DNA of 64,000 nt, taken from assembly GCF_020809045.1 (NCBI RefSeq), contig NZ_CP078079.1, positions 2,790,001 to 2,854,000 on the forward strand. Direction: 5' to 3'. Each line of letters starts with the position of its first letter. Position 1 is the stretch's first letter. A model generated the notes under the pieces. That model was given only the letters and a program-made list of their open reading frames with translations. It did not search any database and was not told the DNA's origin. Position numbers and translations under genes: made by a program. The DNA comes from Pseudarthrobacter sp. L1SW. Lineage in GTDB: Bacteria > Actinomycetota > Actinomycetes > Actinomycetales > Micrococcaceae. Shown here in pieces: positions 32,948-47,356 of the stretch.

Positions 32948-33013
32948 CCCAACTGGGTAGCGCCAAGTGTCGTTTTGGGGGTTCAAAACGACACTTAGCG
33001 CTACTTAGTTGGG
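32948..33013. repeat. Long near-perfect palindrome (30-bp arms, 6-bp loop)
   Basis: Left arm 32948-32977, loop 32978-32983, right arm 32984-33013; 27 of 30 positions pair. The core is AAGTGTCGTTTTG against CAAAACGACACTT, flanked by GTAGCGC and CCCAACT blocks. It abuts the stop codon of the GH3 gene and is followed by no U-tract on either strand. It could be a REP/MITE-like intergenic palindrome, a U-less terminator, or an operator over the promoter of the next gene. Confidence 0.9.
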
Positions 33014-44259: not shown

Positions 44260-45939
44260 ATGATGCCCTCCACCCCAAGTGACCTGGAGATCGCCAGGGC
44301 GGCACGGATCCGGCCCATCGAGGAAATAGCTGCTGCGGCCGGCATTAACGCCGACGCCCTGGAACAGTACGGGCGCTACAAGGCGAAGATCGACCCCGCG
44401 CGGCTGCAGGCTCCTGCTCCGGCCGGGAAGGTGGTGCTGGTCTCCGCAATGTCCCCCACGCCCGCCGGCGAGGGGAAGTCCACCACCACGGTGGGGCTGG
44501 CGGACTCCCTGGCCCGGGCGGGCCACAAGGTGATGATCGCCCTGCGCGAGCCGTCGCTGGGCCCGGTCCTGGGCATGAAGGGCGGCGCCACCGGCGGCGG
44601 CTACTCCCAGGTGCTGCCGATGGACGAAATCAACCTCCACTTCACCGGCGATTTCCACGCCGTGACGGCCGCCAACAATGCCCTGATGGCGCTGGTGGAC
44701 AACCACATCTACCAGGGGAACCAGCTCAACATCGACCCCCGGCGCATGACGTTCAAACGGGTCCTGGACATGAACGACCGCGCCTTGCGGGAAGTGGTCA
44801 TCGGGCTGGGCGGGCCCACCCAGGGGATTCCGCGGCAGGACGGTTTCGACATCACGGTGGCGTCCGAAATCATGGCGGTCTTCTGCCTGGCGACTGATGT
44901 GGCAGACCTCCGTTCCCGACTGGGCCGGATCACGTTCGGCTACACCTTCGACCGGGCCCCTGTCACGGTTGCGGACCTGGGCGTGCAGGGTGCGCTGACG
45001 CTCCTGCTGAAGGAAGCCATCAAACCCAACCTGGTGCAGACCATCGCCGGCACCCCCGCCCTTGTCCACGGCGGTCCCTTCGCCAATATTGCCCACGGCT
45101 GCAACTCGCTGATTGCCACCCAGACGGCCCGGCGGCTGGCGGACATCGTGGTCACGGAAGCTGGCTTCGGCGCCGACCTGGGCGCCGAAAAGTTCATGGA
45201 CATCAAGGCCCGGACCGCCGGCCTGGCGCCTTCAGCGGTTGTGGTGGTGGCAACCGTGCGCGCCCTGAAAATGCAGGGCGGGGTGGCCAAGGACCAGCTC
45301 ACCGTGCCGGACCTGGCCGCCCTCGAGGCCGGTGTGGCAAACCTGCGCCGGCACGTCCGGAACGTGGAGAAGTTCGGGGTGCCGCCCGTGGTGGCCATCA
45401 ACAGGTTCGCGTCCGATTCCGCTGAGGAACTCGACTGGCTGCTGGCCTGGTGCGCCGCGGAGGGCGTTCCGGCCGCCGTCGCCGATGTCTGGGGGCATGG
45501 GGGCGGAGGCGACGGCGGGGACGAACTTGCCGCGGTTGTAGCCCAGGTAGCCGCCCGCCCGAACAGCTTCCGGCACCTGTACCCCCTGGAACTGCCGGTG
45601 GAGGACAAGATCCGGACCATCGCCCAGGAGATCTATGGGGCGGACGGCGTGGATTTCTCGGTTCCTGCCTTGAAGCGGCTGGCGGATATTGAGCGGAACG
45701 GGTGGGGCGGGCTGCCGGTGTGCATGGCCAAGACGCAGTACTCGTTTACGGACGACGCGTCCCGCCTCGGCGCACCCAAGGGCTTCACCATCCACGTGCG
45801 GGACCTCCTGCCCAAGACCGGCGCAGGGTTCATTGTGGCGCTGACCGGAGCGGTCATGACCATGCCGGGCCTGCCTGCGGCCCCGGCGGCAATGCGGATG
45901 GACGTGGACAGCGACGGCAACCCCGTGGGCCTCGCCTAG
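44260..45939 (+). CDS. fhs: Formate--tetrahydrofolate ligase
   Basis: A 559-aa enzyme forming 10-formyl-THF from formate, THF and ATP. The P-loop is [18 protein letters not shown] (about 67-84). [26 protein letters not shown] and [18 protein letters not shown] are strongly conserved. [12 protein letters not shown] and [32 protein letters not shown] (end region) complete the family pattern. ATG 44260 is followed at once by a second ATG (44263); AGAAGGA lies upstream. It ends at the repeat array that separates it from convergent ino1. Confidence 0.96.
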
Positions 45940-45957
45940 CGCCCCGCCGCCCCCTGC

Positions 45958-46053
45958 GACGCTCTCTCACTTAACGTGGGCTTTCCACAGACGCTCTCTC
46001 ACTTAACCTGGCCTTTCCACAGACGCCCTCTCACTTAACGTGGGCTTTCCGGC
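45958..46053 (+). repeat. Left arm: three tandem 32-bp repeats
   Basis: Copies start at 45958, 45990 and 46022, exactly 32 bp apart. The core is CTCTCTCACTTAACGT (third copy CCTCTCACTTAACGT), followed by GGGCTTTCC. Copies 1 and 2 end in CACA and are almost identical (2 differences in 32). A decayed fourth copy (GATCCTCTCGCATGTTCC) may begin at 46054. Confidence 0.92.
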
Positions 46054-46149
46054 GATCCTCTCGCATGTTCCGGCGAGTCAGGGACTCTGGCGGCCGCCGC
46101 CAGTGCGGCCACAAGGGCCGGGTCGGCATGCCCACCCGGCCGCAACGAC

Positions 46150-46245
46150 GCGGCGCTCCCCCACCAGAGTGAGAGAGCGCCGCGTGAATACCCACATTAA
46201 GTGAGAGAGGATCGTCCAGAAACCGACGTTAAGTGAGAGAGGGTC
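46150..46245 (-). repeat. Right arm: three inverted 32-bp repeats
   Basis: Read on the minus strand, copies start at 46245, 46213 and 46181, again exactly 32 bp apart. The first two carry CTCTCTCACTTAACGT and CTCTCTCACTTAATGT. The innermost keeps CGCTCTCTCACT and then diverges. The arm is inverted relative to 45958-46053. Confidence 0.9.
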
Positions 46246-46270
46246 GCAAGGGGGCAGACGGGCTCAACGC

Positions 46271-47356
46271 TTAGCGCTCGAGGTCTCCGCGGATGAAGGC
46301 TTCCACCTTTTCGCGGGCGAGGTCGTCGTTGAACTGCTCCGGCGGGGACTTCATGAAGTAGCTCGATGCCGAAAGCAGGGGTCCGCCGATGCCGCGGTCC
46401 AGGCCGATCTTGGCGGCGCGGATGGCATCGATGATCACGCCGGCGGAGTTGGGTGAGTCCCAGACCTCCAGCTTGTACTCAAGCGACACGGGCGCGTCGC
46501 CGAAGTTGCGGCCCTCAAGGCGTACAAACGCCCACTTGCGGTCATCGAGCCACTGGACGTAGTCGGACGGGCCGATGTGCACGTCCTTGGCGGCCAGTTC
46601 GGCTTCCACGTTGGACGTGACGGCCTGGGTTTTCGAGATCTTCTTGGACTCCAGCCGGTCGCGCTCCAGCATGTTCTTGAAGTCCATGTTACCGCCGACG
46701 TTCAGCTGGTAGGTGCGATCCAGGGTGACACCGCGGTCTTCGAACAGCTTGGCCATGACGCGATGCGTGATGGTGGCGCCGATCTGGCTCTTGATGTCGT
46801 CGCCCACGATCGGCACGCCGGCGGCGGTGAACTTGTCAGCCCACTCCTTGGTTCCGGCGATGAACACGGGCAGGGCGTTGACGAAGGCAACCCCGGCGTC
46901 GATGGCGCACTGGGCGTAGAACTCTGCAGCTTCCTGCGAGCCGACGGGCAGGTAGCAGACCATAACGTCAACGTTGGCGTCCTTGAGTGCCTGGACAACG
47001 TCCACGGGCTCTTCGGTGGACTGCTCGATGGTCTCGAGGTAGTACTTGCCGAGGCCGTCGAGGGTGTGCCCGCGCTGGACGGTGATGCCGGTGGGCGGCA
47101 CGTCGGCGATCTTGATGGTGTTGTTTTCGCTGGCCAGGATGGCGTCGGCCAGGTCAACGCCGACCTTCTTGCCGTCGACGTCGAACGCGGCGACGAACTC
47201 AACGTCACCCACGTGGTACTGGCCGAACTCAACGTGCATCAGGCCGGGGATCGTGGCCTTGGGGTCTGCGTCCTTGTAGTAGTGGACGCCCTGGACCAGC
47301 GAAGCGGCACAGTTTCCTACGCCGACGATTGCAACACGAATCGGATGTGAAGACAC
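46271..47356 (-). CDS. ino1: Inositol-3-phosphate synthase (actinobacterial Ino1)
   Basis: A 361-aa NAD-dependent enzyme converting glucose-6-phosphate to inositol phosphate. The Rossmann motif is [19 protein letters not shown] (about 6-24). [41 protein letters not shown] and [19 protein letters not shown] are characteristic, and [19 protein letters not shown] lies near the end. The frame is open to 47461, but GTG 47356 has AAAGGAG 4 nt upstream and matches the family start. It supplies mycothiol (MshA at 42946) and phosphoinositides. Confidence 0.96.

Follow-up and report, generated by a model that had tools for sequence, protein, structure and literature searches.

Between the convergent genes fhs and ino1, the stretch of Pseudarthrobacter sp. 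L1SW DNA analysed here (64,000 nucleotides, hereafter the window) holds an array of inverted 32-bp repeats. The reading that we consider probable is that these repeats resemble those of REP/RAYT systems but are paired with a nuclease-type protein unrelated to RAYTs, the window array being best read as a gene-less copy of a dispersed family, F1; the association of the repeats with the nuclease-type gene, exceptions included, is well supported.

Structure and dispersal of the repeats

The left arm comprises three 32-bp units directly 3' of the fhs stop codon (45958..46053, + strand; cores at 45962, 45994 and 46026), with starts at 45958, 45990 and 46022 and the 32-bp spacing that the original prediction gave for three direct copies, and its last core is a degenerate fourth, GATCCTCTCGCAT (46054..46066, +). 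The right arm lies directly after the ino1 stop codon and is made of inverted 32-bp units (46150..46245, - strand); two of the three inverted copies predicted there have full cores (46229 and 46197), and the third has only a partial one (46168-46177). The linkers, all of which had been described as drifting, are unlike each other within the right arm and alike within the left. A centre without units (46067..46147, unstranded) precedes an inner hairpin, ACGCGGCGCTCCCCCAC-loop-GTGAGAGAGCGCCGCGT (46148..46185, unstranded), and the inverted arms, taken as 45950-46035 and 46168-46253 (86 nt each), have 73% complementarity. As originally described, the array stands between two convergent genes, whose stop codons face it: fhs (44260..45939, +; end 45939) and ino1 (46271..47356, -; end 46271), which are named as in the original prediction and would encode formate-tetrahydrofolate ligase and inositol-phosphate synthase, respectively. 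Five core matches (at most two mismatches) occur in the window, every one within the array (100 shuffles: mean 0.29, largest 2). Folding of the array gives z scores of -9.0 as DNA and -9.6 as RNA, and Rfam families at gathering score gave no match in the window and five other loci. One unit succeeds another every 32 bp, and in many arms the same linkers return, in keeping with the original view that this is not a CRISPR array, a candidate ruled out by repeats without unique spacers.

In 30 genus relatives the fhs-ino1 site holds, among the matches listed, arrays or hairpins with different cores (fhs being absent from the fetched stretch in some of them); several have a gene of ~1 kb between the arms, and arrays occur with or without the gene. 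In one close relative, G021, whose ino1 is 98.6% identical, a MerR-type gene stands between the counterparts of the window's two arms, which are ~1.2 kb from each other there: the DNA before that gene (L097) aligns with the left arm and most of the centre (to 46141), and the DNA on its other side aligns with the right arm, the MerR segment being present in G021 and absent from the window. This composite nature of the site accounts for the irregular spacing within the window array. Elsewhere, arms that are adjacent at genome positions 2893125-2893315 are ~7.8 kb apart in another relative, G040 (L302:6895 and 14703). From these two cases, the repeats may mediate deletions.

Far from being confined to this site, the F1 core, CTCTCTCACTTAA, is found 71 times (at most one mismatch) in the 4.10-Mb genome, with 3 matches for the reversed control, bearing out the predicted REP-like dispersal. 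The matches form 39 clusters, one of which (2528971) is probably due to chance. A typical intact element consists of tandem units, (GACGCTCTCTCACTTRATGCG..)n, followed by a hairpin, CTCTCTCACTTTC-loop-GAAAGTGAGAGAG, and then by inverted units. The inverted arms foreseen in the original prediction recur in that most intact elements have facing outer cores 82 + 32k bp apart (exceptions 72 and 92); several one-armed arrays, judged by eye, are without the inner hairpin. Position at gene ends, likewise foreseen, is seen by the approximate gene calls of a simple codon-usage script: a stop codon lies within 60 bp of the outer end in 34 of 52 arms and a start in 2, the outer neighbour presents its stop in 39, its start in 11 and is uncalled in 2, and no arm of the 52 lies inside a called gene. 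In 16 aligned elements two-sided changes preserve the pairing of the inner stem. Across linker columns 24-31, pairing is missing from 79 of 128 cells; on folding, an element would thus form a long hairpin interrupted by an internal bubble. One element, at 3.82 Mb, has a DNA folding z of -10.5. The hairpins are strong, but a T-run after the inner stem is not consistent, and by eye linkers carry T-runs or A-runs.

Several features of genomic placement were recorded beside these. The interval 0.73-2.70 Mb (48% of the chromosome) holds just 5 of the 39 F1 clusters, and a second repeat family (see below) is listed throughout it. A putatively IS30-like transposase frame lies inside one F1 element (L033:5162-6520; genome 235162-236505), at the place of which G040 has an uninterrupted element; the same IS-like end adjoins another F1 arm at genome 3956029 (L060), and this insertion sequence may thus favour F1 palindromes. 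A strand-specific 3'-UTR (Rho) signal from arm orientation was dropped as a candidate, since every inward-facing pair has a '+' left arm, which leaves one-armed cases, few in number, as the only ones in which orientation is informative. An apparent replichore polarity in high-copy genomes was set aside as a suspected artefact of match order, forward matches coming first under a cap. In six low-copy genomes (G174, G075, G066, G067, G039 and G181), core orientation follows the contig half, + in the first and - in the second, at 21 of 22 sites; with the contig start assumed to be at the origin, this polarity looks replication-oriented, and gene orientation may account for it.

The associated gene and its product

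A REP-type transposase (TnpA-REP) had been suggested as the partner. The genome of the organism has no match to the Y1 family PF01797, with a control positive in 5 of 14 genomes, and a RAYT/Y1 transposase is thus ruled out as partner for this genome. The REP-like reading therefore stands for dispersal, gene-end position and inverted arms and falls for the TnpA-REP partner, a different protein family being associated. At 166.4 kb a gene of the kind found at the fhs-ino1 site of relatives (L125) lies between CTCTCTCACTT arrays, the one gene with F1 flanks found in this genome vs 71 cores. The product of the ~1-kb gene in those relatives matches DUF559, and its match to MTES_1575, described in PMC3710099 as a Vsr-type nuclease domain, is below the curated cut-off. 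A paralogue at 1.14 Mb, L127, has a different palindrome on both flanks, and as predicted this palindrome is dispersed (119 matches at up to two mismatches vs 9 for the control), many of the matches being paired exactly 32 bp apart. One solo palindrome of this second family (TAGCGCYAAGTGTC...) lies in the window at 32950..33013 (unstranded). For the third paralogue, L126, the predicted dispersed flank family was not found (30 matches in the genome vs 34 for the control).

A full element has, in order, inward tandem 32-bp units, CCTGTGGATAACTTCTGC, an open reading frame of ~315 residues and inverted units. It was examined in the best 80 of 170 relatives from a scan of genome contigs, all labelled Arthrobacter, Pseudarthrobacter or Paenarthrobacter. 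The motif TGTGGATAAC (at most one mismatch) stands 41-87 bp upstream of the start used in 80 of 80 loci, and TGTGGATAA, part of a conserved block CC-TGTGGATAACTTCTGC, is exact in 77 of 80. The exact 9-mer TGTGGATAA occurs 77 times, counting both strands, in all 534,636 bases of the 80 loci, and is thus confined to its position before the gene. The longer CCTGTGGATAACTTCTGC upstream of the nuclease genes (L142-L221) was also seen to be strongly conserved (80/80 loci). The CCTGTGGATAACTTCTGC/TGTGGATAA block contains the sequence of a perfect DnaA-box 9-mer; a promoter role for the conserved block is as possible as a DnaA-box role. One or both of fhs and ino1 lie within the fetched flanks (up to 3 kb) in 52 of the 80 loci, and in the 42 loci where both are present the nuclease-type gene is between them in every case (42/42); in 16 loci (L142-L156 and L216) the neighbours are instead those of the copy at 166 kb, and in 12 loci neither set is present. 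The fhs-ino1 site is thus the commonest home of the gene family in this sample, and the window is gene-less there.

Within a locus, the upstream and downstream flanks match as inverted sequences with a mean of 17.2, vs 10.3 ± 0.45 when permuted (maximum 12.1 of 2000 permutations; 77 of the 80 loci). This match is an average effect across loci: in 18 of 77 it is 10 or less, no better than the permuted mean, and a locus's own partner flank is best or tied in just 16 of 77, an outcome to which cores common to close relatives contribute. The more identical two proteins are, the more alike their cores (Mantel rho 0.47; largest permuted value 0.27). At the gene borders, a TGAG-type core contains or adjoins the stop codon in 35 of the 80 loci, and a core directly precedes the TGTGGATAAC box in 5.

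The protein was modelled with AlphaFold for L142 (57 sequences, mean pLDDT 88.4, pTM 0.85). In structural comparison, whose Z scores cover the families listed by VIA-align, model residues 203-306 resemble I-Bth0305I (3r3p; Z 11.9, rmsd 2.5, 96 residues), the C-terminal domain resembles E. coli Vsr (1cw0; Z 9.9), and residues 3-198 resemble AbiEi (Z 11.4, rmsd 5.3, 176 residues); Foldseek alone gave no match for the model at E <= 0.001. AbiEi profiles match all four proteins compared (best E: L125 4.6e-08, L127 3e-11, L142 3.2e-07, L201 2e-14), and a sequence search of the PDB returned just 3r3p (E 0.11) and 3hrl (E 0.35). All 57 aligned proteins share E206, D238, Q249, D251, H255 and D264, in which the conserved acidic and histidine residues of the Vsr-like fold are represented and which are presumably catalytic. 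From model and profiles, the protein is predicted to join two domains, one AbiEi-like and DNA-binding, the other a nuclease domain of Vsr/I-Bth0305I type (DUF559). The idea, raised originally, that the array may be a binding array for a repeat-recognising protein fits the AbiEi-like domain of the associated protein.

Distribution among genomes

Core types were fixed from the gene flanks before searching (44 loci in 43 genomes). The type D core, CTTCCTCACCTTT, has 5, 7, 6 and 3 copies in its four genomes, 1 in three others and 0 in 36. The type E core, CTCTCTCACATCC, has 53, 28, 40, 17 and 10 in five type E genomes, 1-10 in 13 others and 0 in 25; three type E loci (L206, L209 and L215) have slightly different cores beside the gene itself. 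The window-type core, ACGCTCTCTCACTT, is present at least once in 112 of 198 genus genomes and at least 10 times in 57. For all three core types tested, genome-wide copies are thus concentrated where the gene bears that core. Relatives of the L125 protein at E <= 1e-20 are found in 196 of the 198 genus genomes, and it is the close form of the protein that is associated with copy number: at least 10 copies of ACGCTCTCTCACTT are present in 39 of 43 genomes with an L125 match at E <= 1e-150 vs 18 of 155 others, and all 32 genomes with a match at E <= 1e-160 have 15-115 copies. At equal ino1 distance (96-98%), genomes with the gene hold 68, 69, 74 and 87 copies vs 0, 0, 0, 0, 0, 0 and 5 in those without it. 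Exceptions occur in both directions: 18 genomes have at least 10 copies without a close full-length gene (G028 with 38, G093 with 32 and G175 with 53, for example), and 4 have a close gene and 0-5 copies. In the 92.5-96% ino1 stratum two genomes without a close full gene hold 53 and 61 copies, and one of these two, G095, has a shorter L125 match at 85% identity. With such strong contrasts and such exceptions, gene presence is a strong but imperfect predictor of copy number. Descent is partly controlled in these comparisons, and much of the correlation between gene and core could reflect common descent.

Across the order, 205 of 297 genomes, belonging to 69 of 94 genera, have relatives at E <= 1e-10. 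In 25 loci of the order search (23 outside the genus and 2 inside), the flanks match with a mean of 17.5 vs 8.8 ± 0.70 when permuted (maximum 12.96); the repeat sequences of these loci differ from those of the window, and a DnaA-box-like 9-mer is present in 9 of the 25. Two distant loci, L286 and L287, were seen to have AGTGGCCACTTCCCCGTGTG-type and longer GATATCGGCCGCAGGTGCAGG-type tandem arrays, inverted across the gene.

Conservation of the nuclease falls short of that of the genes beside it. Across the 38 loci where fhs and ino1 are both present, mean identity is 0.69 for the nuclease vs 0.87 for fhs and 0.94 for ino1, and the nuclease is the less conserved in 701 of 703 pairs relative to fhs and in 703 of 703 relative to ino1. 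The tempo of the repeats was compared with G040, which has 80-91% DNA identity to the genome of the organism over the window: of 11 stretches tested, two of them the two arms of the gene-bearing element, 9 are common to both genomes in place, several with changed unit numbers, so that repeat movement appears slow or past. At 158802 the place is taken in G040 by 790 bp of other DNA (of which 420 bases were inspected) with no core at up to one mismatch, and no clean insertion was seen among the 11 stretches.

Possible mechanism, alternatives and known systems

The repeats and gene share several features with REP/BIME/REPIN-RAYT systems as portrayed in PMC2817692 and PMC3116915: extragenic palindromic repeats in inverted doublets able to form hairpins, a gene flanked by two inverted copies and co-varying with its repeats, gene presence that tracks repeat number (here with exceptions), and a gene that evolves faster than its neighbours. 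Unlike REP-RAYT, the protein here is an AbiEi-like and Vsr-type nuclease fusion rather than a Y1 enzyme, the arms are tandem 32-bp units, and a conserved TGTGGATAAC motif precedes the gene. In the mechanism that we infer, the AbiEi-like domain would read the 32-bp units, the Vsr-type domain would nick a hairpin whose paired cores have a largely unpaired linker bubble between them, and repair or template switching would carry copies into gene ends, much as has been put forward for RAYTs and REPs; slippage or unequal recombination would then alter unit number locally. Only tentatively do we extend this to the broader proposal that AbiEi-like/Vsr-type fusions might be a second, independently evolved enzyme class that founds and maintains REP-like families, that the paralogues might have evolved their own repeats, and that the enzyme might act on bubble-bearing hairpins.

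Among the alternatives, the repeats could be host 3'-end devices (bidirectional terminators, Rho sites or mRNA-stabilising hairpins) spread by gene conversion, with the nuclease gene as a passenger. The excess of stops over starts within 60 bp of outer ends (34 vs 2 of 52 arms), the marked stability of the hairpins (z -10.5 for the DNA of one element, RNA z -9.6 for the window) and the covarying inner stem are as expected of such devices, yet by eye a U-tract does not consistently follow the inner hairpin and several one-armed arrays have no hairpin at all, and the pairing of core types with protein types is left unexplained; we consider this explanation unlikely. A little less likely again is homing, in which a free-standing homing endonuclease gene invades pre-existing palindromes and the solo arrays are its empty targets. 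Like the Vsr-fold homing endonucleases of I-Bth0305I type, to which the nuclease domain is closest, the protein has the predicted C-terminal fold (Z 11.9) and its gene lies inside palindromic sequence; cores at the gene borders (before the TGTGGATAAC box in 5/80 loci, at the stop codon in 35/80) indicate that the gene splits a palindrome, and at one site the arrays of relatives occur with or without the gene. Unlike that type, however, the gene here is free-standing between host genes and dozens of uninterrupted related palindromes, all of them self-targets under homing, persist in the same genome, where one F1-flanked gene was found vs 71 cores; nor does homing itself explain the origin of the solo arrays.

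A purely regulatory role, with an AbiEi-like repressor, the repeat as its operator and the dispersed copies as a regulon or titrating sponge, is very improbable. PMC7319586 describes AbiEi and Rv2827c as binding inverted repeats at their own promoters, and the AbiEi-like domain here agrees with them in N-terminal fold and sequence profile; but unlike them the protein carries a nuclease domain, whose candidate residues, invariant in 57/57, a pure repressor would not need, and the solo arrays are mostly at gene 3' ends and not at promoters. The elements also resemble MITEs and terminal-inverted-repeat transposons in having gene-bearing and gene-less forms with inverted ends, but differ from these in that no known transposase is encoded by the gene that the element carries.

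PMC2817692 ascribes REP-like repeats to a single class of enzymes, the RAYTs, and the RepRanger paper (PMC12306157) has a table of palindrome counts for Arthrobacter livingstonensis and no mention of RAYT. Full-text literature, a scope with subscription journals mostly outside it, gave no match for the core sequence, nothing for an AbiEi-DUF559 pairing, DUF559 with inverted repeats, a REP-Vsr link or REPIN/RAYT in Actinobacteria, and only papers off-topic by title for AbiEi with homing endonuclease and DUF559 in Arthrobacter. The reading of REP/RAYT-like repeats with a nuclease-type partner places the signature of those systems (inverted flanks, matching cores and a copy number that goes with gene presence) beside a protein of another kind, in a RAYT-less genome, which suggests an unrecognised route to repeat acquisition in bacteria. 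The widespread DUF559/MTES_1575-like group, annotated as of 'unknown function', gains a testable function from it, and the natural protein-repeat pairs, with their many different cores, are material for learning how such proteins read DNA.
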